Below are positions 43,310 to 56,884 of a stretch of 64,000 nt of DNA, piece by piece. The first letter of the stretch is position 1; the number at the start of each line of letters is the position of its first letter. A program made the position numbers and the translations under genes. Source of the stretch: Hyphomicrobiaceae bacterium (GTDB lineage: Bacteria; Pseudomonadota; Alphaproteobacteria; Rhizobiales; Hyphomicrobiaceae); contig JAEUMD010000007.1 in the NCBI GenBank assembly GCA_016793635.1, forward strand, positions 62,001-126,000, given 5' to 3'. The notes under the pieces are model-generated. The model saw only the letters and a list, made by a program, of their open reading frames with translations. It was not told the DNA's origin and did not search any database.

Positions 43310-46108
43310 TTACTCCGCCGCGTCTGCTTCCTCGTGCGCTGGCTGGTCGATCCGCTCGATGCGGCAGGCGCAATACTTGAACTCCGGGATCTTGCCCATC
43401 GGATCGAGCTGAGGGTTCGTCAGCGCGTTGGCGGGCGCCTCCGCGAACGCGAACGGAATGAACACCATCCCCTCCGCCGTATCACGGTCCGCGCGCGCCT
43501 TGAGCGTGATCTCGCCGCGCCGGGTCGCGACGATGATCATCTCGCCCGGCTCGATGCCCATGCGCTGCATGTCGCGCGGATTGAGCCCGGCGATAGCCTC
43601 GGGCTCGAGCGCGTCGAGCGTCGTCGCGCGGCGGGACATGGAGCCCGTGTGCCAATGCTCGAGCAGACGGCCCGTGGTCAGCACCAGCGGGAACTCGTCG
43701 TCGGGCAACTCGTGCGGCGGCATCAGCGACGCCGGTACGATGCGGGCACGGCCCGACTTGGTCGGGAAGCCGCGCGAGAAGATGATCTCGTTGCCGGGCT
43801 TGTCGGGCGCGTCGCACGGGTACGTCACGGCACCCTCGCTGACGAGGCGCTGCCAGGTGATGTTCTTCAGCGATGGCATCATGTTCGCCATCTCTGTGAA
43901 CGCCTCCGAGACGTCCTTGTAACGCCACGGCAGCCCCATGCGCTGCGCGATCTCTTGAATGATCTGCCAGTCCTGGCGCGCTTCGCCGGGCGGCGAGATC
44001 ACCGGGCGGCCGATCTGCACCTGCCGGTTGGTGTTGGTGAAGGTTCCCCACTTCTCGGCATGCGCGGAAGCGGGCAGCACGATGTCTGCCTGCCATGCCG
44101 TCTCGGTCATGAAGATGTCCTGCACCACGAACAGCTCGAGCTCGCAGAGCGCCTGACGCGCCTGGCGCACGTTGGGATCGGACATCGCCGGGTTCTCACC
44201 CATGATGAACATGCCCTTGACGAGGCCTTCGTGGATCGAATGCATGATCTCGATGACCGTGAGGCCGCGGTTGGGATCGAGCTTCGTATTCCACAGGATC
44301 TCGTATTTCTTGCGCGTGTCCTCGTCCTCGACAGAGATGTAGTCGGGGAAAACCATCGGGATGAGGCCAGCGTCGGAAGCACCCTGCACGTTGTTCTGAC
44401 CGCGCAAGGGATGCAGGCCCGTGCCCGGCCGGCCGATCTGACCGGTGATGAGCGCGAGCGAGATGAGGCAGCGCGAGTTGTCGGTGCCGTGGGTGTGCTG
44501 TGACACGCCCATGCCCCAGAAGATGATCGACGCTTTCGATCGCGCATAGAGGCGAGCGACCTCGCGGATCACCTCCGCGTCGATGCCGCAAACGGGCGCC
44601 ATGCGCTCGGGGCTGAACGCGCGCACCTTCGAACGCAGGGCGTCGTAGCCGTCCGTGTTGGCCTGCACATACTGCACATCGACCATGCCTTCCTCGATGA
44701 TGGTGTGCAGCATGGCGTTGAGCAGCGCGACGTCGTGCGCCGGCTTGAAGTTCAGAACGTGGGTCGCATACCGGGCAATGCCAGAGTGCTGGCCGCGCGG
44801 GTCCATGACGATCAGGTTGGCGCCACGCGCCGCGGCCTGTTTCAGATAGGTTGCCGCGACCGGGTGGTTTTCCGCCGGACGGGCGCCGATGACGATGATC
44901 GTCTCGGCGTCCTTCGCTGCCGTGAACGGGGCGGTCACCGCGCCCGAGTTCACGCCTTCCATCAGCGCCGCGACCGACGAGGCATGGCAGAGCCGCGTGC
45001 AATGATCGACGTTGTTGGTGCCGAAGCCCTGACGGACGAGCTTCTGGAACAGATAGGCTTCCTCGTTCGAGCCTTTCGCCGAGCCGAGACCGGCGAGCGC
45101 CGAGCCGCCCCACGTGTCGCGAATGCGCTTGAAGCCGTTCGCCGCCTTGTCCAGTGCCTCTTCCCAGGTCGCCTCACGGAACACTTCCAGGATCTCGTCG
45201 CGCGTGCGCGGAATGAGGCACTCGCGCTTCGGCATGCCCTCCTTGCGGATCAGCGGCTTGGTGAGACGGTCGGGATGGTGGATGTAGTCGAAGCCGAAGC
45301 GGCCTTTCACGCACAGCCGGTTCTCGTTGGCCGGACCGTCGCGCCCGTCGACGTAGAGGATCTTCTCGTCCTTGACGTGCACGGTGGTCTGGCAGCCGAC
45401 GCCGCAATAAGGGCAGATCGTATCGACGCTGTGGTCCTCGTAGGCGACACGCTTGCCGGTGGCCTTGTCGAGGAGGTTGCCTTCCATGAGCGCGCCGGTC
45501 GGGCAGGCTTGGACGCACTCGCCGCAGGCGACACACGTGGAAGAACCCATCGGATCGTCGAAGTCGAACACGACCTTGGCCCCATGCCCGCGGTAGGCCA
45601 TGCCGATGACGTCGTTCATCTGCACTTCGCGGCAAGCGCGAACACAGAGGTTGCAGTTGATGCAGGCGTCGAGATTGACGGCGATCGCCGCGTGCGAGTT
45701 GTCGGCGGCGGGCCGCTCGGCGCTCGGCATCCGGCTGACGGGCGCGACGCCCATGCGATCCACCCACGACCAGAACTTGGACTTCGGATCGTGGCTCGTT
45801 TCGCGCGCCGGTTGATCGGCGAGCAGCAGCTCGAACACCATCTCGCGCGATTTCTTCGCCCGCTCGGATGCGGTCTTCACCTTCATTCCGCTCGCGGCCT
45901 TGCGCTGGCACGAGGCGGCGAGAACCCGCTCACCCTCGATCTCCACCATGCACGCGCGGCAGTTGCCATCGGCGCGGTAGCCCGGCGCCGGGTGATAACA
46001 CAGGTGCGGAATCGACGTTCCATGGCGCTTGGCGACCTGCCAGATGGTTTCACCAGGCGCGGCCTCGACCTCGACACCATCGAGCAGGAATTTGATCTTG
46101 TCCGTCAT
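43310..46108 (-). CDS. NAD-dependent formate dehydrogenase, catalytic (alpha) subunit
   Basis: A 932-residue molybdenum- or tungsten-bis-MGD enzyme oxidising formate to CO2. Order of domains: N-terminal [2Fe-2S] (HLCYHPAPGYRADGNCRACMVEIEG), a His-Cys cluster region, two ferredoxin [4Fe-4S] motifs (CINCNLCVRAC near 149, CVACGECVQAC near 191), the MopB cluster CPYCGVGC near 230, and the catalytic domain with C374 in TRLCHASS as the metal-ligand cysteine. NNVQGASDAGLIPMVFPDY and the C-terminal GRLLEHWHTGSMSRR are MGD-binding regions. It lies 86 bases after the beta subunit gene; the operon ends with a strong terminator. Confidence 0.94.
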   Translation of the reverse strand: MTDKIKFLLDGVEVEAAPGETIWQVAKRHGTSIPHLCYHPAPGYRADGNCRACMVEIEGERVLAASCQRKAASGMKVKTASERAKKSREMVFELLLADQPARETSHDPKSKFWSWVDRMGVAPVSRMPSAERPAADNSHAAIAVNLDACINCNLCVRACREVQMNDVIGMAYRGHGAKVVFDFDDPMGSSTCVACGECVQACPTGALMEGNLLDKATGKRVAYEDHSVDTICPYCGVGCQTTVHVKDEKILYVDGRDGPANENRLCVKGRFGFDYIHHPDRLTKPLIRKEGMPKRECLIPRTRDEILEVFREATWEEALDKAANGFKRIRDTWGGSALAGLGSAKGSNEEAYLFQKLVRQGFGTNNVDHCTRLCHASSVAALMEGVNSGAVTAPFTAAKDAETIIVIGARPAENHPVAATYLKQAAARGANLIVMDPRGQHSGIARYATHVLNFKPAHDVALLNAMLHTIIEEGMVDVQYVQANTDGYDALRSKVRAFSPERMAPVCGIDAEVIREVARLYARSKASIIFWGMGVSQHTHGTDNSRCLISLALITGQIGRPGTGLHPLRGQNNVQGASDAGLIPMVFPDYISVEDEDTRKKYEILWNTKLDPNRGLTVIEIMHSIHEGLVKGMFIMGENPAMSDPNVRQARQALCELELFVVQDIFMTETAWQADIVLPASAHAEKWGTFTNTNRQVQIGRPVISPPGEARQDWQIIQEIAQRMGLPWRYKDVSEAFTEMANMMPSLKNITWQRLVSEGAVTYPCDAPDKPGNEIIFSRGFPTKSGRARIVPASLMPPHELPDDEFPLVLTTGRLLEHWHTGSMSRRATTLDALEPEAIAGLNPRDMQRMGIEPGEMIIVATRRGEITLKARADRDTAEGMVFIPFAFAEAPANALTNPQLDPMGKIPEFKYCACRIERIDQPAHEEADAAE

Positions 46109-46194
46109 GACACCGTCTTTCGCGGTTCTCGTCGTTCAGGTTATCCGCGGCACCGGCCTCATCGGCATGTCCGGCGTCGGGATGCGGAATGAAA

Positions 46195-47991
46195 TCAGCC
46201 GAGGTCCTCGGGGAAGAACTTCAGCACCGACTGGAGCGGATTGGAAGCCGCCTGCCCAAGGCCGCAGATGGACGCATCACGCATCACCTGGCTCAGATCG
46301 TCCAGCAGCGGCTTGTCCCAAGATTTGGCGCCCATCAGCTTCACGGCCTTCTCGGTACCGGCACGGCAAGGCGTACATTGCCCGCAGCTCTCGTCCTCGA
46401 AGAAGCGCATCAGGTTGAGGGCCACGGACTTCATGTCGTCCTTGTCCGACAGGATCACAACCGCATGGCTGCCGACGAAGCAGCCATGTTTCTCAAGCTG
46501 CCCAAAATCGAGGGGAATGTCCGCCATCGAGGACGGCAGGATACCACCCGAGGCGCCGCCCGGCAGGTAGCCCTTGAACGCATGTCCGTCGAGCATGCCA
46601 CCGCACAGCTCGATCAGCTCTGCGGCCGTCGTTCCCGCAGCCGTCAGAACGACGCCCGGGGTCTTGACGCGCCCCGACACGGAGTAGGAGCGAAGCCCCT
46701 TCGCGCCGTTCTTCCCTTGCGAGGCGAACCAGGACGAGCCCTTCGCCAGGATCGACGGAATCCAGTAGAGCGTCTCGACGTTGTTGACGAGCGTCGGCCG
46801 GCCGAAGATGCCGACCTCGGCGACATATGGCGGCCGCTGGCGCGGCAGGCCGCGCTTGCCCTCGATGCTTTCGATCATAGCGCTTTCCTCGCCGCAGATG
46901 TAAGCGCCCGCGCCACGCCGCACCTGGATCTTGGTGTGCCGCATCAGGCCAGCCGCCTCCACCTTGGCGAGCTCCGTCGCAAGGATCTCGCGCACCGCCG
47001 GATACTCGTCACGCATGTAGATGAAGACCTGCTCGGCCTCCACCGCCCACGCTCCGATCAGCATGCCCTCGATGAAGGCGTGCGGACGCGTTTCGAGGTA
47101 GTGACGATCCTTGAACGTGCCGGGCTCGCCCTCGTCGCCGTTGACCGCCATGAGGCGCGGGCCCTTGTAGCCGCGCACGAACGTCCACTTGCGGCCGGTC
47201 GGGAAGCCAGCACCGCCGAGCCCGCGCAAACCACCGTCGGAAAGTGTGGTGATGACGCTGTCGACACTGCGCTCGCCGCCGAGGCATTGCTTCAGCACCG
47301 CGTAGCCACCGTCGGCGGTGTAACTTTCGAACGTCTGATAGTCGGGGATGGTCGCGTGCGAACGGCCGTGCTCCACCTGAGACTTGATCTTGTCGACCGT
47401 CGCATGATCGACGTGGGCGTGACCGACATGCACGGCCGGCGCCGTATGGCACGAACCGAGGCAGGGCGCGCGCAGCACGCGCACGTTCTCCATGTCCTCG
47501 GCACCGAGCGCAGCCAGAAGCTCCTCGGCACCGGCCATCATGCACGAGAGAGAATCGCATACGCGGATCGTATGCTCGGCGGGCCGCGGCTCGCCGTCAG
47601 AGATCACGTCGAAGTGCGCATAGAACGTCGCCACTTCGTAAACCGCCGCCATCGGCATGCGCATCAGCTCGCCAAGCGCTTGCAGATGGCCGACCGGGAG
47701 ACAGCCCTCCTTGTCTTGAATCTTGTGCAGGTTCTCGATCAGCATGTCGTGGGTATGCGGCCCGGGACCGACGATCTGCGCGACGGCCTGTCGCTCGTCG
47801 TCTTTCAGCAATCGGCCCTTCGGGAAGATCAGCGCCTTGCGCCGCCCGGCACCGGGATGGGGAGAACGCTTGCCGCCCTCCCACGGCTCGCCGCCAAACC
47901 CGCCGGATGCGTTGCCGGCGCCCGTGGCATGATTGCGGCCGAAGCCACTCGCGTTGTCGCTCGTCACCGATGATGTCCTTCCGACCTGCAT
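46195..47991 (-). CDS. NAD-dependent formate dehydrogenase, beta subunit (NuoE-NuoF fusion)
   Basis: A 598-residue diaphorase subunit. Residues about 60-190 are NuoE-like: a thioredoxin-fold [2Fe-2S] site with C-DSLS-C and C-LGS-C. The rest is NuoF-like: FMN/NAD site GLRGLGGAGFPTGRKW, GDEGEPGTFKDR, GAGAYICGEESAMIESIEGKRG, and the [4Fe-4S] motif ESCGQCTPCRAG with a further Cys in SICGLGQ. A fused NuoE-NuoF beta subunit is the FDH1 architecture known from methylotrophs, where the metal is tungsten. The first ~60 residues are low-complexity. The start at 47991 is the best ATG, with a weak ribosome site. Confidence 0.93.
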   Translation of the reverse strand: MQVGRTSSVTSDNASGFGRNHATGAGNASGGFGGEPWEGGKRSPHPGAGRRKALIFPKGRLLKDDERQAVAQIVGPGPHTHDMLIENLHKIQDKEGCLPVGHLQALGELMRMPMAAVYEVATFYAHFDVISDGEPRPAEHTIRVCDSLSCMMAGAEELLAALGAEDMENVRVLRAPCLGSCHTAPAVHVGHAHVDHATVDKIKSQVEHGRSHATIPDYQTFESYTADGGYAVLKQCLGGERSVDSVITTLSDGGLRGLGGAGFPTGRKWTFVRGYKGPRLMAVNGDEGEPGTFKDRHYLETRPHAFIEGMLIGAWAVEAEQVFIYMRDEYPAVREILATELAKVEAAGLMRHTKIQVRRGAGAYICGEESAMIESIEGKRGLPRQRPPYVAEVGIFGRPTLVNNVETLYWIPSILAKGSSWFASQGKNGAKGLRSYSVSGRVKTPGVVLTAAGTTAAELIELCGGMLDGHAFKGYLPGGASGGILPSSMADIPLDFGQLEKHGCFVGSHAVVILSDKDDMKSVALNLMRFFEDESCGQCTPCRAGTEKAVKLMGAKSWDKPLLDDLSQVMRDASICGLGQAASNPLQSVLKFFPEDLG

Positions 47992-48038: not shown

Positions 48039-49235
48039 TCAAGGCGGACGTTTGGCCGCCTCGACGGCGTTGCGGGACGCGGCGGCCATGTCGCTCGCGC
48101 CCTGATACGCGACGCCATTGTTCGCGAGAACAGTGGCCGCGAACGCCGCGTTGTTTCCAGCCATACGCACCACGATCGCCGGCTTGTGCGCCGAGCGGCG
48201 AAGTGCGATGCCGACGCCCTCTGCAATCGTATCGCATGGCTGCATGCCGCCACCGTGAACGTTCACGAGGATCACCCGAACCTTCGGATTGGCAAGGATC
48301 AGCTCGACGCCATAGGCGACATCGAGGCTCGTCGCCGTCGTCCGGATGTCCATGAAGTTCGCGGGCTGACCGCCGGCATCGACGATCGCATCGAGCGTCG
48401 CAAGCGCGAGGCCCGCTCCGTTGACGACGAGGCCGACGTCGCCATCCATGCGCTGGTAGTTGATGTGGTGACGGTCAGCGCCGAGCACCACCGCATCCCC
48501 CTCCTCCGCCTCGACTGCGGCGGCGAGCGCCGCGAGTGCCGGATGGCGGATCAGCGCATTGTCATCGATGGTGATCTTCGCATCGAGGGCGACGAGGTCA
48601 CCATCCCACGTCACCGCCAGCGGATTGATCTCGACCTGCGTCGCGTCGAGCGCAACGGCCAGCGAGGCCATACGGCGGAAGATGGTCGCGGCCTTCTCCG
48701 CGACGCCACCGTCGAGGCCGATGCTCGCCGCCATTCCAGCGAAATCGCCCTCCGCGCCGTCGCGGGTGATCGTGAGCGGGGCACGGCGGATGAACTGCGC
48801 GTCCTGCTTGGCGCGCGCCTCGATGGCCGAGCCGCCGGCCGGCGCGGCCATCAGTGAAAGTTGCCCCGTCACCCGGTCGAGGAATACGGCCGCATAGAGC
48901 GCCTGCATCGCCTCGATCGCTTCTTCGATCAGCACCCAACGGACTTTTTCGCCGGAATTGGCTGCGTCCGCCAGCCCACCACCCGCGCGTGAAATCCGCG
49001 AATCGAGCAGCAGGCGTGCGGTCTCGCCGACACCCTCCGGAGAGGCGGAGAACCGCACACCGCCAGCGGCGAGACGGTCGGTGGACCGCACCTGGGCCTT
49101 GACGGCAAAGCGGGGGAACGAAAGGCGCCGCGCCACCCGCTCGGCGTCGGCGGCACTATCGGCGATCCGCCCCCTCGGAACGGGCACGGCGAATCGGGTC
49201 AGGAGTTCCTTGGCTTGGAACTCTTGCAGATTCAT
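48039..49235 (-). CDS. Orphan succinyl-CoA ligase beta-like ATP-grasp protein
   Basis: A 398-residue protein clearly related to SucC/MtkA: MNLQEFQAKELLTRFAVPVPRG, VALDAKITIDDNALIRHP, GDVGLVVNGAGLALATLDAI, GGQPANFMDI, ILVNVHGGG. It departs at key places: the AGGRGKAGG nucleotide loop is VRSTDRLAAGG here, and the F-G-G-I-x-R-C-D loop is HGGGMQPCD. No alpha subunit (SucD, carrying the phospho-His) is adjacent. It is 47 bases upstream of the FDH beta gene and probably the first gene of that operon. It may activate an acid to its CoA ester for the lyase module, or pair with an alpha subunit elsewhere. Substrate unknown. Confidence 0.8.
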   Translation of the reverse strand: MNLQEFQAKELLTRFAVPVPRGRIADSAADAERVARRLSFPRFAVKAQVRSTDRLAAGGVRFSASPEGVGETARLLLDSRISRAGGGLADAANSGEKVRWVLIEEAIEAMQALYAAVFLDRVTGQLSLMAAPAGGSAIEARAKQDAQFIRRAPLTITRDGAEGDFAGMAASIGLDGGVAEKAATIFRRMASLAVALDATQVEINPLAVTWDGDLVALDAKITIDDNALIRHPALAALAAAVEAEEGDAVVLGADRHHINYQRMDGDVGLVVNGAGLALATLDAIVDAGGQPANFMDIRTTATSLDVAYGVELILANPKVRVILVNVHGGGMQPCDTIAEGVGIALRRSAHKPAIVVRMAGNNAAFAATVLANNGVAYQGASDMAAASRNAVEAAKRPP

Positions 49236-49479
49236 GCTCCGGCGCTCCGCTCCCGCGCGGTCCAGAACCGCGCATCTGGTTTCTTCTTTTCTTGCGCGCC
49301 CGCTTCTACATCGTCCCCCTGTCCGCCGCGTCACCCAAACGGGTGGGCGCAGGAGACCTGGGCATCATGAGAAAGCGAACCGACGATGACTTACCGCACC
49401 TAAGGACAAACCAGCTCGAAGCGGCTGATCGCGGAACTCCAGAAAACCAGGATCCACAGCGATTACAAGTCGTCAACAC

Positions 49480-49489
49480 TGGTATACCA
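49480..49489. promoter_or_regulatory. GntR/FCD-type operator candidate 1
   Basis: TGGTATACCA, a perfect 10-base palindrome identical to the core site bound by many FCD-subfamily GntR regulators. It lies 245 bases upstream of the SucC-like gene and 427 bases before gntR. Confidence 0.55.
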
Positions 49490-49750
49490 CAGCCCGGCGG
49501 GTGGGGTGAGCGTCTTCCTCGACGCGCGCGATCAACTTTGGGATGCACGCTTCTCGGTCGCTCTGCACTTTTCGCGGGCCAGCCATGAGCATCCTGCCGC
49601 TGATCCCGTTGATGTTTGGGTTGTTAGAGAGGCGGCACCCGTCGCCAGCGAAACCAATGCGGAACACAACCGCGAAAGGCTGGATGACCCGAAGGGCTGA
49701 TACTATAGTGCCGTTCCCTGCCCGATCTGGTGTTGAAGAGCCGCCCACCT

Positions 49751-49767
49751 TGGCATATGGTATGCCA
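49751..49767. promoter_or_regulatory. GntR/FCD-type operator candidate 2
   Basis: TGGCATA-TGG-TATGCCA, a perfect 7-3-7 inverted repeat that also contains the FCD-like core TGGTATGCCA. It lies 149 bases upstream of the gntR start, suggesting autoregulation and control of the downstream lyase/transferase operon. Confidence 0.6.
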
Positions 49768-49916
49768 GAAGTGATGCCGTCCACCGGATCCCTCTCGAAC
49801 TCTCGCGCGCCGTCACCGCCATTCAATCGGGCCGCGCCGCGAAGCGAGTGCTAACGGAGGGCGCCCCACGGCAACGACACACGGCTCACGACTTCCACCG
49901 GAACGGGAAGCTTCGC

Positions 49917-50603
49917 ATGGACATGCAGAAGACGAGCCTCAACATCGTCCCGATCGGCGAAAGCCAGAGTCTCAAGACGCGTGCCTACGAGGCGTTGAAG
50001 GCCGCGATCGCCGAGATGAACATCTATGACGACAACGCCGTGCTTCGCCTCGACGAGCGCGACCTCTCGGCCCGCTTCGGCATCTCGCGCACGCCGCTTC
50101 GCGAGGCACTGGCCCAGCTCGACCAGGAGGGGTTGGTTCGCGTCGTCGCCCGCCGGGGCATTTTCATCGTCAGGAAGACGAAGGCCGAAATTCTCGACAT
50201 GATAACGGTGTGGGCCGCGCTCGAGAGCATGGCCGCGCGCCTCGCAGCAGAGCATACGCCGCCCGAGAGCCTGACGGAGTTGCGCCAGCTCACCGACCCC
50301 TACGACGACGTCAGCCGCAAGATGGGTGAATACTCGGACGCCAATATTCGCTTCCATCAGGCGATCCTGAGAGCCAGCGGCAACCCGCTCATCGGTGACA
50401 TCGCCGACGGGCTCTTTCTTCATGTCCGCGCCATCCGCAACCGCACCATTTTCGAAAAGGACCGTGCCCAGCGCTCGATCGTCGATCATCGCCAGATCGT
50501 CACGGCGATCTCCGAGCGCGACGGCGATCTAGCCGAGCGGCTGGTGCGGGAGCACACGCTGCGACTGAGAGCTCACGTCGAACAGCACGTCGACATTCCC
50601 TGA
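49917..50603 (+). CDS. GntR family transcriptional regulator, FCD subfamily
   Basis: A 228-residue regulator from the ATG at 49917 (GGGAAG seven bases upstream). The N-terminal winged helix is SLKTRAYEALKAAIAEM...LDERDLSARFGISRTPLREALAQLDQEGLVRVVARRGIFIV. The C-terminal FCD ligand domain has NIRFHQAILRASGNPLI and VDHRQIVTAISERDGDLAERLVREHTLRLRAHV, with the His/Asp residues that bind metal and carboxylate ligands. FCD regulators usually respond to organic acids. It lies 80 bases upstream of the ThDP lyase gene and probably senses that pathway's acid substrate. Confidence 0.93.
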   Translation: MDMQKTSLNIVPIGESQSLKTRAYEALKAAIAEMNIYDDNAVLRLDERDLSARFGISRTPLREALAQLDQEGLVRVVARRGIFIVRKTKAEILDMITVWAALESMAARLAAEHTPPESLTELRQLTDPYDDVSRKMGEYSDANIRFHQAILRASGNPLIGDIADGLFLHVRAIRNRTIFEKDRAQRSIVDHRQIVTAISERDGDLAERLVREHTLRLRAHVEQHVDIP

Positions 50604-50683
50604 CGTTCGCGAAACGCCAGCCGACACGGCAAGACACAAACAACAAGAACAAACAAGAATCCCGACCTAGAGGAGGAATAGAC

Positions 50684-52441
50684 ATGGCGGCAACCGGTGC
50701 AGCCGAGGCGAAGATCGCCACGACGACGGCCGAGGATACGCTGAAGCGCAAGAGCACGGATCCCAACGTCGTCTCGGGCGGGCGCCTGGTCGCCAAGGCC
50801 CTCAAGAACGAAGGCGTCGATACGATCTTCACGCTCTGCGGCGGTCACATCATCGACATCTACGACGGCTGCATCGACGAGGGCATTCGCGTCGTCGACG
50901 TCCGACATGAGCAGGTCGCCGCGCACGCCGCCGACGGCTACTCGCGCCAGACCGGAAAGCTCGGCTGCGTCGTCACCACCGCCGGCCCAGGCTGCACGAA
51001 CGCCGTCACTGGCGTCGCCACGGCGTTCCGTTCCGAAAGCCCGATCATCCACATCGGCGGCCAGTCCTCGCTCACCCAGCACAAGATGGGCTCGCTGCAG
51101 GATCTGCCTCACGTCGACATGATGACCCCCATCACCAAGTTCGCGTCAGGCGTCTTCTCGACCGATCGCGTCGCCGACATGATCTCGATGGCCGCGCGCG
51201 AGTGCTACGCAGGCGCCTACGGTCCCTCCTACCTCGAGATCCCGCGCGACGTGCTGGACGCCGAGATCCACCTCGACAAGGCGCGTATCCCCAAGCCCGG
51301 ACACTATCGCGCCTCGGGCCGTTCCATCGGCGACCCGGCCGACATCGAGCGGCTGGCCGAGATCATCAACAAATCCAAGCGTCCGGCCGTGCTGTTCGGT
51401 CAGCAGGTCTGGATGTCCGGCAGCCACCAGGAAGCGATCGACTTTGTTCGCGCGCTCGACGTACCGGCCTACCTGAACGGCGCCAGCCGCGGCATGCTGC
51501 ACCCCGACGACCCGCACCACTTCGACCGCACGCGCAGCTTGGCGTTCAAGGACGCCGACGTCCTCCTCATCATCGGTACGCCGTTCGATTTCCGCATGGG
51601 CTACGGCAAGCGCATCTCGGTGCCGACGCTGGTGCAGATCGACATGGACTACCGCACGGTCGGCAAGAACCGCGACATCTCGCTCGGTCTCGTTGGACAT
51701 CCGGGCGCCATCCTCTCGGCGGTTGCAGCGGCTATCTCGGCCGGTCCTGACGCTGCGGCGCGCCAGGAGCGTCAGCAGTGGATGAAGAAGCTGCGCCAGG
51801 CCGAGGGCATCGCGCTCGAAAAGCTGATGCCGCTGTTCAAGTCGAATCAATCACCGATCCATCCCTATCGCCTTGCCTGGGAGATCAACGAATTCCTCGG
51901 CGACGACACGATCTACATCGGCGATGGCGGCGACGTCGTCACGATCTCGGCGCAGGCGGTCCGCCCGCGCGGTCCCGGCCAGTGGATGGACCCCGGCGCA
52001 CTCGGCTCGCTCGGCGTCGGCACCGGCTTCGCGCTCGCAGCCAAGCTTGCGCATCCGAACAAGGAAGTCATGTGCCTCTATGGCGACGGCTCGTTCGGCA
52101 TGACCGCCTTCGACATGGAGACGGCGCAGCGCTTCGGCGCGCCTTATCTAGCGGTGATCGGCAACAACTCCGCCATGAACCAGATCCGCTATGGTCAGAT
52201 CGCAAAGTACGGCGAGAACCGCGGTGACATCGGCAATAAGCTCGGCGACGTCGAGTTCTCCATCTTCGCCAAAATGATCGGCGGCTATGGCGAGGAAGTC
52301 CGCGACGCCAACGAGATAGGCCCCGCACTCCAGCGTGCCCGCGAGGCGATCGCCAAGACCGGCAAGTGCGCCGTGGTCAACGTCTGGATCGACCCGCGCG
52401 AGTACGCGCCGGGCACCAAGAACCAGACGATGTACAAATAG
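50684..52441 (+). CDS. ThDP-dependent 2-hydroxyacyl-CoA lyase / oxalyl-CoA decarboxylase-like enzyme
   Basis: A 585-residue ThDP enzyme; AGGAGG precedes the ATG. The activating Glu is E76 in VRHEQVAAHAADGYSR. The Mg-ThDP motif is G467-D-G-S...N494-N495. Between them, DGGDVVTISAQAVRPRGPGQWMDPGALGSLGVG and KEVMCLYGDGSFGMTAFDMETA resemble HACL2/ILVBL much more than canonical Oxc: the Oxc segments GYIEGKPGVCLTVSAPG and NNGGIY are replaced by GYSRQTGKLGCVVTTAGPG and NNSAMNQIRYG. I infer cleavage of a 2-hydroxyacyl-CoA to formyl-CoA plus an aldehyde or ketone, with oxalyl-CoA decarboxylation as the alternative. The frc gene follows after 154 bases. Confidence 0.82.
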   Translation: MAATGAAEAKIATTTAEDTLKRKSTDPNVVSGGRLVAKALKNEGVDTIFTLCGGHIIDIYDGCIDEGIRVVDVRHEQVAAHAADGYSRQTGKLGCVVTTAGPGCTNAVTGVATAFRSESPIIHIGGQSSLTQHKMGSLQDLPHVDMMTPITKFASGVFSTDRVADMISMAARECYAGAYGPSYLEIPRDVLDAEIHLDKARIPKPGHYRASGRSIGDPADIERLAEIINKSKRPAVLFGQQVWMSGSHQEAIDFVRALDVPAYLNGASRGMLHPDDPHHFDRTRSLAFKDADVLLIIGTPFDFRMGYGKRISVPTLVQIDMDYRTVGKNRDISLGLVGHPGAILSAVAAAISAGPDAAARQERQQWMKKLRQAEGIALEKLMPLFKSNQSPIHPYRLAWEINEFLGDDTIYIGDGGDVVTISAQAVRPRGPGQWMDPGALGSLGVGTGFALAAKLAHPNKEVMCLYGDGSFGMTAFDMETAQRFGAPYLAVIGNNSAMNQIRYGQIAKYGENRGDIGNKLGDVEFSIFAKMIGGYGEEVRDANEIGPALQRAREAIAKTGKCAVVNVWIDPREYAPGTKNQTMYK

Positions 52442-52595
52442 CAACGCGCCCGCGTGAGCCCGCGTCGAGAGCCGTCACCGGCTTTCAACCCGGGCTGCGC
52501 ACACCGGCCTTCACCCCCTCGCCTGAGCGGGGCTGGATTTTCGATACAAAAATACCGCGAGAGACAGCGCGGACGCCCAAGGAGAACAAGCGACA

Positions 52596-53870
52596 ATGAA
52601 AGCCCTCGACGGCATCAAAATCCTCGACTTCACCCATGTCCAGTCGGGGCCCACCTGCACGCAGCTTCTCGCCTGGTTCGGCGCCGACGTCATCAAGGTC
52701 GAGCGCCCCGGAGAAGGTGATGCGACGCGCAAGCAGCTCATCGACGTTCCGGGCGCCGACAGCCTCTATTTCACGATGCTCAACCACAACAAGCGGTCGA
52801 TCACCATCGACACGAAGAACAAGCGCGGCAAGGAAATCCTCGAGCGCCTGGTGAAGACCTGCGACGTGCTCGTCGAGAACTTCGCCCCAGGCGCGCTCGA
52901 CCGCATGGGCTTCTCGTGGGAACGCATCCAGGAATTGAACCCGCGGATGATCATGGCCTCGGTGAAGGGCTTCGGCCCCGGCAAGTACGAGGATTGCAAG
53001 GTTTATGAGAACGTCGCGCAGTGCGCCGGCGGCTCGGCCTCAACGACCGGCTTTCGCGACGGGCCGCCGCTCGTCACCGGCGCCCAGATCGGCGACTCCG
53101 GCACCGGTCTGCATCTTGCGCTCGGCATCGTCACCGCACTCTACCAGCGCGAGCGCTCGGGCCGCGGCCAGCGTGTGCTCGCACCGATGCAGGATGGCGT
53201 GCTGAACCTTTGCCGCGTGAAGCTGCGCGACCAGCAGCGACTCGAGAAGGGCCCGCTGAAGGAATATTCGCAGTTCGGCGAGGGTATTCCGTTCGGTGAG
53301 GCGACGCCGCGCGCCGGCAACGACTCGGGCGGCGGCCAGCCGGGCCGCATTCTCAAGTGCAAGGGCTGGGAGACAGACCCCAACGCCTACACCTACTTCA
53401 TCACCCAGGCCGCCGTCTGGGAGAAGGTGTGCGACGTGATCGGCGAGCCCGAGTGGAAGACCAAGCCCGGCTACGCCAAGCCGGTGGAGCGCCTCGACAA
53501 GTTGAATGAGATCTTCGCGCGCATCGAGCAGTGGACGATGACCAAGACCAAGTTCGAGGTGATGGACATCTGCAATCCGCTCGACATTCCGGTCGGACCG
53601 ATCCTTTCGCTAAAGGAGATCGCGGCGGATGAAGGCCTGCGTGCCACCGGCACGATCGTCGAGGTCGATCACCCCGAGCGCGGTCCCTACCTCTCGGTCG
53701 GCTGCCCGATCAAGATGTCGGACAGCCCCGTCGAGGTGAAGCGTTCGCCGCTCCTCGGCGAGCACACCGACGAGATCCTGACAGAGGTGCTCGGCTACTC
53801 GAAGGAGGAGGCGGCCGAGCTCAGAACCGTCGGCGCGACCGAGATCGTCAAGCGCCAGGCCGCCGAGTAG
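52596..53870 (+). CDS. frc: Formyl-CoA transferase (class III CoA-transferase, Frc family)
   Basis: A 424-residue class III CoA-transferase with high similarity to Oxalobacter Frc: [44 protein letters not shown], the catalytic D167 in [26 protein letters not shown], the mobile glycine loop GGGQP (245-249) and LKCKGWETD. It moves CoA from formyl-CoA to an acid (oxalate in characterised members), releasing formate. AAGGAG precedes the start. Because the adjacent lyase is not a canonical Oxc, the acceptor acid may be different. Canonical length. Confidence 0.92.
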
Positions 53871-54184
53871 GCGATGGTTTATCGGGGGGCGCTTTCGCGC
53901 CCCTCGTCACGCCCGGCCCGCGCCAATGGGCAAACGTCGCGACCATCGCCGCATTCGGAGAGCCGATCGAAGCCCCGGGAAATTAGCGAAGCCTGGAACA
54001 TCACTCGAGCGCGCGGCATGCGTGAGCCAAAGGGCGATCCGGACCCGGATGCTCTCGAAACTTCAAGATGGAGCGCAATCGTCCGGCCAGGAAACATTTG
54101 CGCTTCGCTCTGATCGAATAGCGCAACAGCTCAACAACATGACATGGGGCCGCATCCAATGGGCTCCGAACGGGAGGATCATCG
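53871..54184. other. Intergenic region after frc
   Basis: 314 bases. A hairpin GGGGCGC-TTTC-GCGCCCC at 53886-53903 lies 15 bases after the frc stop but has no T run, so termination would be weak. The rest shows no gene or strong signal until the GGGAGG ribosome site at 54174. Confidence 0.4.
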
Positions 54185-55123
54185 ATGCGCATCGTCGTCC
54201 ATGGCCAGGAGGCCTTCGGCAAGGCCGTGCTCGAGCGCCTGCTCGAGCGCGGTGAGAACGTGGTCGCGGTTTTCTCGGCCCCCGACAAGGAGGGCAAGGC
54301 CCGCGACCCCCTCGCCGCCTTCGCCTCCGAGAAGGGCTTGCCCGTACATCAGCCGGCGTCGTGGAAGACACCGGAAGCGCTGGCACTGATGCAGTCGTTC
54401 AAACCTGATGTCTGCATCATGGCCTACGTGACGCTGTTCGTCCCGCAGCCCGTGATCGACGCGCCGACCTATGGCACGTTCCAGTACCATCCCTCACTGC
54501 TGCCCGAGCACCGCGGCCCTTCGGCGATCAGCTGGCCGATCGCGATGGGCAAGACACGCACAGGCCTATCTATCTTCTGGCCCGACGAGGGTCTCGACGA
54601 GGGCCCCATCCTGATGCAGAAGGAGTGCGACATCGGCCCGGATGAAACGCTCGGCGACGTCTACTTCAAGAAGCTCTTTCCGCTCGGCGTCGATGCCATG
54701 ATCGAAAGCCTCGATCTCGTTCGCGACGGCAAGGCGCCCAAGATTCCGCAGGACCACTCGAAGGCCACCTACGAGTACCGCTTCAAGAAGGCGATGGCCG
54801 AAATCGACTGGTCGAAGCCTGCTGCCGACGTTTACAACCTCATTCGCGCGGTGAACCCGGCGCCCGGCGCCTGGACCCGCCTCAAAGGCGTCAAGCTCGA
54901 CATCTTCGACTCGCGCAAAGCCGAGGGATCGGGCAAACCCGGCGAGGTGCTCGCCATCTCCACGGACGGCGTCACGGTCGCAGCCGGCAGCGGTGCCATT
55001 CTGGTGAAGCGGCTCCGCGCCGACGCCGGACAGAAGATCACGGCTGCGGAATTTGCCGCATCGACCGGGCTCAAAGTCGGCGACATCTTCGAGGCGGCAA
55101 CCCCAGCCGAAGCGAAAGCCTAA
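54185..55123 (+). CDS. Stand-alone 10-formyl-THF hydrolase/formyltransferase-domain protein
   Basis: A 312-residue protein matching the N-terminal hydrolase domain of 10-formyltetrahydrofolate dehydrogenase (ALDH1L1): MRIVVHGQEAFGKAVLERLL, VFSAPDKEGKA, FQYHPSLLPEHRGPSAISW, GLSIFWPDEGLDEGPILMQKECDI, PAADVYNLIRAVNPAPGAWT. Catalytic H102 and D138 are 36 residues apart, as H106/D142 in the mammalian enzyme. The Fmt-type N-x-H is Q-Y-H, arguing against methionyl-tRNA formyltransferase. The carrier and aldehyde dehydrogenase domains are missing. It should take formyl from 10-formyl-THF (to water or another acceptor), or move formyl between CoA and THF in this operon. Confidence 0.82.
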   Translation: MRIVVHGQEAFGKAVLERLLERGENVVAVFSAPDKEGKARDPLAAFASEKGLPVHQPASWKTPEALALMQSFKPDVCIMAYVTLFVPQPVIDAPTYGTFQYHPSLLPEHRGPSAISWPIAMGKTRTGLSIFWPDEGLDEGPILMQKECDIGPDETLGDVYFKKLFPLGVDAMIESLDLVRDGKAPKIPQDHSKATYEYRFKKAMAEIDWSKPAADVYNLIRAVNPAPGAWTRLKGVKLDIFDSRKAEGSGKPGEVLAISTDGVTVAAGSGAILVKRLRADAGQKITAAEFAASTGLKVGDIFEAATPAEAKA

Positions 55124-55173
55124 AAACCAAGGTTCGGACGTTAGAGCCGGTCGGACCATCAAAAAACGGGAAG

Positions 55174-55191
55174 TGCCAGCCAAGACTGGCA
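55174..55191 (+). promoter_or_regulatory. Hairpin abutting the fhs ribosome binding site
   Basis: TGCCAG-CCAAGA-CTGGCA, a perfect 6-bp inverted repeat, ends on the first base of the AGGAGG Shine-Dalgarno site of fhs. It could modulate access to the site or be a protein binding site. Confidence 0.35.
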
Positions 55192-55207
55192 GGAGGAGAC
55201 AAAAACA

Positions 55208-56884
55208 ATGGCCGTGAAATCCGACATCGAGATTGCCCGCGAAGCCAAGATGAAGCCGATTGCCGAGGTCGCCACCAAGGTCGACATTCCGGCTTCTGCG
55301 CTGCTCAACTACGGCCCCTACAAGGCCAAGGTGTCTGCCGAATTCATCGACGGCCTCAAGGATAAGAAGGACGGCAAGCTCATCCTCGTCACGGCCATCA
55401 ACCCTACTCCGGCGGGCGAGGGCAAGACGACGACGACGGTTGGTCTCGGCGACGGCCTCAACCGCATCGGCAAGAAGGCCATGATGTGCTTGCGCGAGCC
55501 GTCGCTCGGCCCGTGCTTCGGCGTCAAGGGCGGTGCCGCCGGCGGCGGATATGCCCAGGTCGTGCCGATGGAGGACATCAACCTCCACTTCACGGGTGAC
55601 TTCCACGCCATCACCTCGGCCCACAACCTGCTCTCGGCACTGCTCGACAACCACATCTACTGGGGCAACGCGCTCGGCCTCGACGCCCGCCGCATCGGCT
55701 GGCGCCGCGTGCTCGACATGAACGACCGCGCGCTGCGCTACATCGTCAACTCGCTTGGCGGCACGGCCAACGGCTTCCCGCGTGAGGACGGCTTCGACAT
55801 CACCGTCGCTTCCGAAGTGATGGCCATCCTGTGCCTGTCGATGGATCTCAAGGATCTCGAGCGCCGCCTCGGCAACATCGTCGTCGGCTACACCCGCGAC
55901 AAGACCGCGATCCGCGCCCGCGATCTCAAGGGCGATGGTGCCATGACCGTACTGCTCAAGGACGCCATGATGCCGAACCTCGTGCAGACGCTGGAGAACA
56001 ACCCCGTCTTCATCCACGGCGGTCCGTTCGCCAACATCGCCCACGGCTGCAACTCTGTGCTGGCCACCAAGACTGCGTTGAAACTTGCCGACTACGTCGT
56101 CACGGAAGCGGGCTTCGGTGCGGACCTCGGTGCCGAGAAGTTCTTCGACATCAAGTGCCGCAAGGCCGGGCTGCAGCCGGCCGCAGCAGTCATCGTCGCG
56201 ACGGTCCGCGCCCTCAAGATGCACGGCGGCATCGCCAAGGACGACCTCAAGGCCGAGATCGCCGCAGCGGTCGCGAAGGGCTGCGAAAACCTGAAGCGCC
56301 ACATCGAAAACGTGCGCAAGTTCGGCGTGCCGCCGGTCGTGGCCGTCAACCGCTTCATCACCGATACCGACGCCGAGATCGCCGAGGTGATGAAGGCCGC
56401 GGAGAGCATGGGCACGAAGGCTTTCTTGTGCACGCACTGGGCCGATGGCGGTAAGGGCACCGAGGAGCTGGCACGCCACGTTGCCGACGTCGCCAACAGC
56501 GGCGAGGCCCGCTTCCAGCCGCTCTACCCGGACGACATGCCCCTGCGCGACAAGGTGCGGACGATCGCGAAGGAGATCTATCGCGCCGCCGATATTTCGT
56601 GCGACGCTTCCGTCGAGGCGCGCTTCAAGGAGCTGGAAGCCGCGGGCTACGGCAAGCTGCCGGTGTGCATGGCGAAAACACAGTATTCGTTCTCGACCAA
56701 CCCCAACCTGCGTGGCGCTCCCACAGGCCACATGGTCCCCGTGCGCGAGCTGCGACTTTCCGCCGGCGCCGAGTTCATCGTCGTCATCACCGGCGAGATC
56801 ATGACCATGCCGGGCCTTCCGCGCGTGCCGTCCGCCGACAACATCCGCCTCAACGAGAACGGTCAGATCGAAGGACTGTTCTGA
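55208..56884 (+). CDS. fhs: Formate-tetrahydrofolate ligase
   Basis: A 558-residue Fhs making 10-formyl-THF from formate, THF and ATP. Landmarks: the P-loop [17 protein letters not shown] near residue 70, [73 protein letters not shown] and [21 protein letters not shown]. It starts with a strong AGGAGG site. It channels formate released by Frc into the folate C1 pool for serine, purine and methyl synthesis. An intrinsic terminator follows. Confidence 0.97.

Follow-up and report, generated by a model that had tools for sequence, protein, structure and literature searches.

The window examined here is a 64,000-nucleotide stretch of a Hyphomicrobiaceae genome. It contains a locus in which a GntR/FCD regulator gene is followed by genes for a thiamine diphosphate (ThDP) enzyme, a formyl-CoA:oxalate CoA-transferase (Frc), a stand-alone formyltransferase-domain protein (Fth) and a formate-tetrahydrofolate (THF) ligase (Fhs), with a formate dehydrogenase (FDH) encoded divergently. 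We propose, at a probability of roughly 0.86, that this is an operon for oxalate catabolism in which a non-orthologous enzyme has taken the place of canonical oxalyl-CoA decarboxylase (Oxc). The observations behind this proposal are computed gene content, partner exchange, operator enrichment and active-site differences.

The acid activated by Frc is almost certainly oxalate, with CO2 as the co-product, because similar Frc, regulator, operator, Fth, Fhs and Tct transporter genes flank canonical Oxc elsewhere, and because relatives of the locus adjoin OxlT, PanE and, once, glyoxylate carboligase. The sequence-only reading had drawn a self-sustaining cycle of Frc and lyase; its outline stands, with Frc feeding CoA to the acid, the ThDP enzyme predicted to regenerate formyl-CoA, and FDH and Fhs using formate, but the acid is narrowed to oxalate. 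That reading had also allowed for the neighbourhood being already known as an oxalate operon, which is largely the case for the identity of the pathway and not for that of the lyase: the operon is known in kind, and the non-orthologous decarboxylase appears to be unrecognised.

The ThDP enzyme

The ThDP enzyme lies under every NCBIfam cut-off among the 25 best of 52 families listed, scoring 220.1 of 557 bits on the Oxc model (NF006721), 347.1 of 600 on the 2-hydroxyacyl-CoA lyase (HACL) model (NF058623) and 430 of 587 on an acetolactate synthase model; the genome's own acetolactate synthase scores 1161 bits, above its cut-off of 974. It is 23–27% identical to canonical Oxc, 26–29% to HACL1-like proteins and 28% to that acetolactate synthase, so that, judged by sequence, it is no nearer to Oxc than to acetolactate synthase. 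The earlier statement that it is not a canonical Oxc is thus borne out by score, by identity and by the replacement of the Oxc pocket residues described below.

These comparisons place the enzyme in a sharply bounded family of its own. In the genome collection, the best 80 of 592 relatives (the nearest ones, not a random sample, with organisms named from record titles) are 75–83% identical to it and come from alpha-, beta- and gammaproteobacteria. Plasmid records hold eight relatives at 60–80%, three of them actinobacterial at 62–65%, and the next matches fall below 35%. Identities in the family overall are about 61–83% in Proteobacteria and 62–65% in three Actinobacteria. On the tree, the family is split from Oxc at a support of 100/99 and Oxc groups with the HACL1-like proteins; the family itself joins AcHACL, the actinobacterial 2-hydroxyisobutyryl-CoA lyase (PDB 7pt1-7pt4), at 86/71 with a long-branch warning. 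AcHACL is also the nearest solved structure, at 34% identity, and the top match in a fold search with a structure model of pLDDT 85.7 (a first model was poor, at 68.7). The label "HACL2-like" given by the sequence-only reading is therefore fair as to the nearest structure, although the HACL model falls far short of its cut-off.

The pocket was compared in an alignment of 97 window-type members with 12 Oxc. Residues Y118, E119 and Y478 of the E. coli Oxc (YfdU) are replaced by Leu138, Gln139 and Asn499 in all 97 members, and S550 by Asn (57), Ala (37) or Arg (3). The same positions, matched by motif to Tyr120-Glu121, Tyr483 and Ser553 of the O. formigenes enzyme, are kept in 12/12 Oxc. The ThDP-activating Glu76, a trait common to the superfamily, is present in 97/97 members, and the family has an invariant C-terminal end, Gln-Thr-Met-Tyr-Lys.

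It is possible to read the enzyme as a true 2-hydroxyacyl-CoA lyase, in which case Frc would activate a 2-hydroxy acid with formyl-CoA and the lyase would release formyl-CoA and an aldehyde or ketone. This would suit the proximity to AcHACL by sequence and by fold, the GGH, LQD and DGGD motifs which the two share and which Oxc lacks, and an aldehyde dehydrogenase gene found downstream in six Paraburkholderia/Burkholderia loci and in one Streptomyces locus (L088). However, Glu493 of AcHACL is Ile501 in the window enzyme, invariant in 22/22 members, and the aldehyde dehydrogenase is limited to those loci among 97 examined; moreover, Frc, Fth, Fhs, GntR and operator of this kind also accompany canonical Oxc, and OxlT adjoins relatives of the enzyme. 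A lyase as the main function is accordingly improbable. The AcHACL system differs further in that its substrate acid is activated by the CoA ligase HCL, not by Frc (PMC7176365, in excerpt). The bacterial HACL and 2-hydroxyacyl-CoA synthase (HACS) enzymes and human HACL1 (6xn8, 8vza) are alike in fold, and the HACL1-like group also has Gln for the Glu of Oxc, but they are only 25–29% identical to the window enzyme and the HACL1-like group joins Oxc on the tree.

The pocket also bears on a second alternative, a natural C1 carboligase that joins formyl-CoA to formaldehyde or glyoxylate in an operon for C1 assimilation. Excerpts of PMC8411744 report that changes at E135, Y497 and S568 of MeOXC raised carboligation, and these residues would correspond to Gln, Asn and Asn/Ala/Arg here; a supply of formyl-CoA from formate by Fhs and Fth is possible. 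Against this, the distribution of the family tracks oxalate genes, and no glycolyl-CoA or tartronyl-CoA gene was recognised among the named conserved clusters, most small clusters being unannotated and no direct search having been made. We regard it as very improbable, and nothing was found in support, in vivo, of the earlier suggestion that formyl-CoA and formaldehyde are condensed to glycolyl-CoA by the reverse reaction, one with which the pocket would be compatible. Lyase or carboligase activity alongside a decarboxylase is possible.

Distribution against canonical Oxc

In a class sample of 385 genomes, with Frc counted above its profile cut-off and a strong Oxc defined as 740 bits or more, 35 genomes are Frc-positive. 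Fifteen of these hold the window-type ThDP family, 18 a strong Oxc, none both and two neither; the zero overlap has a hypergeometric P of 4e-8 when genomes are counted and 3e-5 when taxonomic families are. The two with neither enzyme are G239 and G312, in the latter of which Frc begins at base 93 of its contig. The family occurs without a listed Frc in G071, where a piece of Frc stands at the contig end directly behind the gene (L123), and Oxc occurs without an Frc match in G127, whose contig stops 136 bases behind Oxc (L148). A HACL1-like group (six genomes, 544–582 bits on the Oxc profile) was held apart from canonical Oxc; five of the six pass the Oxc profile cut-off, and if they were counted as Oxc the Frc-positive G187 would hold both enzymes.

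Among named isolates with the ThDP family, 20/23 are without Oxc and three, all Paraburkholderia, have it too (a 24th, L070, was left out). In the window genome no protein exceeds the Oxc cut-off, and there is no OxdC match. The streamlined 1.4-Mb genomes of one genus (G030, G259, G337) carry the ThDP family and Frc, in G030 (locus L120 on contig C1) alongside Tct, GntR, Fth and SucC, and oxalate use in this small-genome lineage is likely.

Operon neighbourhoods and partner exchange

The survey of conserved neighbourhoods advised by the sequence-only reading was run on 97 ThDP-family loci, 66 of them with full flanks; in the Fisher tests related loci count as independent. Of the full-flank loci, 62/66 have Frc no more than 9 kb from the ThDP gene, far beyond chance. 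Six genomes show no Frc at the locus and all six have it elsewhere; the sequence at one such locus, L021, ends 0.7 kb behind the ThDP gene. Five loci (L013, L014, L018, L023 and L054) have only Tct and/or Fth beside the ThDP gene, with Frc elsewhere in each genome.

The window Frc is canonical, as had been noted: it is 60% identical to E. coli YfdW, passes the Frc profile cut-off (Table 1), and keeps the glycine loop and the catalytic Asp167 (YfdW D169), the latter being present in 94/94 Frc. Oxc-side Frc are 60–84% identical to it (8/12 at 75–84%) and ThDP-family-side Frc 56–88%, with a median of 78. In a tree of 48 Frc proteins, comprising 36/82 from the lyase side (that of L119 about 5 kb from its ThDP gene) and 12/12 from the Oxc side, the partner label switches at least 5 times on well-supported (starred) branches (bootstrap 5–6).

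Some Oxc operons share the cassette. Five of the 19 canonical Oxc loci in the class sample (L134, L136, L138, L143, L144) have the order GntR-Oxc-Frc-Fth-Fhs; Tct is present in four of the five and FDH likewise in four, and in L144 FdhA, FdhB and Tct point away from GntR, like FDH in the window. The 12 full-flank Oxc loci include Fth in 5, Fhs in 4, TctA in 7 and GntR in 10, and a GntR gene stands upstream of the ThDP family or of Oxc in most relatives. The window operon resembles known oxc-frc operons (E. coli yfdWU, B. phytofirmans PsJN) in its kind of Frc and its logic, and five Oxc-type operons of the class sample share its GntR, Fth and Fhs genes; it differs in a decarboxylase 23–27% identical to Oxc with other pocket residues.

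The 66 full-flank loci fall into two main operon types, one with a Tct transporter and Fth (21/26 Tct loci), often with Fhs, and the other with an OFA-family transporter and an ADP-forming acyl-CoA synthetase (19/28 OFA loci; three of the 28, L082, L088 and L092, are matches at just 23–26% identity). In Paraburkholderia an OxlT lies beside the ThDP family (one protein scanned, 635 bits on TIGR04259 with a cut-off of 335), and oxlT is annotated beside it in Phyllobacterium. PanE-type reductase genes are also found there; the reductase family includes the Methylobacterium oxalyl-CoA reductase PanE2 (PMC7486775 and PMC8411744, both in excerpt). A PanE of the window genome is 85% identical to that beside the Filomicrobium operon.

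In locus L121 (G277:C143) the genes for GntR, the ThDP enzyme and Frc stand in a row with those for glyoxylate carboligase and PanE, and the whole looks like a complete oxalate assimilation operon. A fumarylacetoacetate hydrolase (FAH)-family gene is present in 18/28 OFA loci, for example L077, L059 and L066, and one guess is that it encodes a formyl-CoA or oxalyl-CoA hydrolase.

A probable operator

Palindromes of 10 bases of the TGGTATACCA type are enriched upstream of GntR genes, with 34 sites (at most 1 mismatch) in 28/76 regions against a mean of 0.71 and a maximum of 3 in shuffles. The pattern was picked after seeing the window, the shuffles preserved nothing beyond two-base blocks, and the upstream regions are related to one another; without the window there are 32 sites in 27/75 regions, the majority (48) having none. 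Such a site is present in 5/8 Oxc-side GntR upstream regions, so both kinds of operon carry the palindrome. An earlier pattern with three or more spacer bases yielded nothing. Operators of the TGGTATACCA type are the probable target of the GntR/FCD regulator, and two palindromes at the window locus, TGGTATACCA and TGGTATGCCA, are candidates.

Proposed pathway, Fth and Fhs

We infer the catalytic steps as follows. Frc would take CoA from formyl-CoA, which leaves formate, and load it onto oxalate to make oxalyl-CoA; the ThDP enzyme would convert oxalyl-CoA to CO2 and regenerated formyl-CoA. Formate would be oxidized by the divergent FDH, yielding NADH, or enter folate via Fhs. Fhs and Fth together may also interconvert formate and formyl-CoA through 10-formyl-THF, coupled to ATP, and could top up the CoA esters whenever oxalyl-CoA is withdrawn, as when the PanE-type reductase encoded elsewhere in the genome converts it to glyoxylate.

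The best solved match of Fth is the hydrolase domain of ALDH1L1 (E 3.2e-65), and the triad His102/Ser104/Asp138 (ALDH1L1 His106, Ser108, Asp142) is kept in 36/36 Fth, in agreement with the stand-alone formyl-THF hydrolase domain recognised earlier. Fth is below the Fmt cut-off (TIGR00460, 177.8 against 201.5 bits), and the true Fmt is on contig C16 with 257.4 bits. According to excerpts of PMC6802093, the ALDH1L1 hydrolase domain passes its formyl group to a phosphopantetheine thiol, and HypX has been proposed to pass formyl from 10-formyl-THF to CoA. The N-terminal domain of HypX/HoxX is homologous to Fth; HypX differs in its second, crotonase-like half, whereas Fth stands alone and is nearer to ALDH1L1. 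A formyltransferase-domain match elsewhere in the genome (contig C26:128024-128671) lies within a 605-aa open frame that is possibly HypX.

The ADP-forming acyl-CoA synthetase, which could interconvert formate and formyl-CoA with ATP, occurs in 1/26 Fth-positive and 24/40 Fth-negative loci, lineages not being independent. Since Fth and Fhs alternate with it, they may interconvert formate and formyl-CoA, via 10-formyl-THF, a role to which we give slightly less than even odds. A plain 10-formyl-THF hydrolase, with a task in balancing the folate pool and none involving formyl-CoA, is a serious contender at somewhat lower odds and is compatible with an oxalate operon; the kinship to ALDH1L1 and the conserved triad speak for it, while a hydrolase next to Fhs would be futile and the mutual substitution of Fth and synthetase across loci would be unaccounted for. 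A literature search of open-licence papers found no description of a formyl-CoA:THF formyltransferase in oxalate operons. In a bolder version, Fhs and Fth would make up a natural formyl-CoA synthase that runs on ATP, which would be a new activity for the fold of ALDH1L1-N. The HACL-type decarboxylase would, besides, join formyl-CoA to formaldehyde or glyoxylate, and the operons would thereby assimilate formate in addition to degrading oxalate; this combination we consider unlikely.

Weighing of the oxalate assignment

A phenotype is available for one carrier of the family. P. kururiensis LMG 19447 appears as oxalate-degrading in Table 1 of PMC3886118, and locus L059, whose record names this strain, has the ThDP family with Frc, synthetase and OFA transporter; its draft genome has no Oxc match and no OxdC match. 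A decarboxylase is expected to be needed because deletion of frc-oxc in C. necator ends growth on oxalate (PMC7486775, in excerpt). The oxc knockout of B. phytofirmans PsJN was considered as a test of the family and rejected, the PCR primers given in the excerpt of PMC3886118 fitting canonical Oxc better: they have 1–3 mismatches to the Paraburkholderia canonical Oxc loci L105-L107 (4.7 kb each) and 4–7 to ten Paraburkholderia/Burkholderia ThDP-family loci and the window (16–64 kb each), with 2 and 8 (L104) and 6 and 7 (L097) mismatches to Oxc loci of other bacteria.

Several observations weigh against the assignment. The pocket differs from Oxc at every oxalyl-positioning residue tested, and excerpts of PMC8411744 report that changing E135, A415, Y497 and S568 of MeOXC together left <0.2% of catalytic efficiency with oxalyl-CoA; in a mycobacterial Oxc, Y126A, E127A and Y485A kept about 10% activity (PMC7190790, in excerpt). 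The titles of the nearest structures read 2-hydroxyacyl-CoA lyase or synthase, and no entry titled oxalyl-CoA decarboxylase is among the 50 best fold matches listed, although some HACS chains bear that molecule name. The exclusion of Oxc is not absolute, as the three Paraburkholderia isolates show, and G239 carries Frc with neither enzyme. PanE and the FAH-family gene, frequent beside the ThDP family, are seen in 0/12 full-flank Oxc loci, and the aldehyde dehydrogenase gene suits a lyase as well. The window ThDP gene has no TctA within 9 kb. The link through LMG 19447 is one strain with one published phenotype and a draft genome, in which oxalate oxidase and other oxalate enzymes were not sought. 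On balance we retain the oxalate operon; by genomic association only, the ThDP family would work with Frc in such operons, as Oxc does.

Surveys of oxalotrophy genes target oxc. In one, E56, Y120 and E121 are fully conserved in a subset of 27 genes of interest (PMC10192776), and in another the set makes one network at 50% identity (PMC7190790), both sources in excerpt; a family at 23–27% identity without Y120/E121 would therefore fall outside such sets. The three plasmid records that are labelled call the close ThDP match a "thiamine pyrophosphate-binding protein", and the open-licence literature searched gave no paper recognised as dealing with the family and no biochemistry for it. Since 15/35 Frc-positive genomes hold the family in place of Oxc, oxalate turnover would be undercounted: if the assignment is true, oxalate degradation is likely missed in many soil and marine bacteria, the enzyme going unrecognised by current annotation. 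Nature would then have solved oxalyl-CoA chemistry a second time, in an enzyme whose pocket is similar to those of carboligases under engineering for C1 assimilation. The possible role of Fth as a formyl-CoA:folate formyltransferase becomes directly testable.

Gene content and coordinates

All eight genes named by the sequence-only reading are intact open reading frames, in the order FdhA, FdhB, SucC-like (minus strand), then GntR/FCD, ThDP enzyme, Frc, Fth and Fhs (plus strand). The range 48039-56884 assigned to the locus holds for all but the two FDH genes, which lie just outside it at 43310-47991. The start of the SucC-like gene is probably 49235 rather than 49334, the profile match beginning at residue 34; that of FdhB is about 47991, and GntR perhaps starts at an ATG at 49917.

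Table 1. Features of the locus, in window positions.
Feature	Coordinates	Strand	Basis
FdhA, molybdenum formate dehydrogenase catalytic subunit	43310..46108	-	TIGR01591 729.6 bits, cut-off 666.25
FdhB, NuoE/NuoF fusion subunit of NAD formate dehydrogenase	46195..47991	-	Profile and domain matches; start inferred
Orphan SucC-like ATP-grasp CoA-ligase beta subunit	48039..49235 (ORF to 49334)	-	PF08442, PF00549; 322.5 bits, cut-off 370; no adjacent SucD
Operator-like palindrome TGGTATACCA	49480..49489		Palindrome enrichment in GntR upstream regions
Operator-like palindrome TGGTATGCCA	49758..49767		Palindrome enrichment in GntR upstream regions
GntR/FCD regulator	49848..50603 (probable start 49917)	+	PF07729, PF00392
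ThDP enzyme, proposed non-orthologous oxalyl-CoA decarboxylase with HACL-type pocket	50684..52441	+	TPP N/M/C domains; exchange with Oxc
Frc, formyl-CoA:oxalate CoA-transferase	52596..53870	+	TIGR03253 703.1 bits, cut-off 504.2
Fth, ALDH1L1-N-type 10-formyl-THF hydrolase/formyltransferase; proposed formyl-CoA:THF formyltransferase	54185..55123	+	Formyl_trans_N and C domains
Fhs, formate-THF ligase	55208..56884	+	NF010030 927.2 bits, cut-off 652

The SucC-like protein has ATP-grasp and Ligase_CoA domains and scores below the succinate-CoA ligase beta cut-off. It is an orphan, as had been stated: the genome has six near-full-length SucC matches, and all but this one adjoin a SucD match. Its pairing with FDH does not form a conserved unit, since relatives carry SucCD, SucC with PanE, or neither at that place. 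SucC without SucD is also found next to PanE in Filomicrobium insigne (L035) and in the metagenome-assembled genome BRH_c36 (L039). Outside the window, on contig C11 (216171-219948), a gene for Xsc (sulfoacetaldehyde acetyltransferase, NF005713, 1042 bits) adjoins SucD-like and SucC-like genes, which together are perhaps a sulfoacetate-CoA ligase module.

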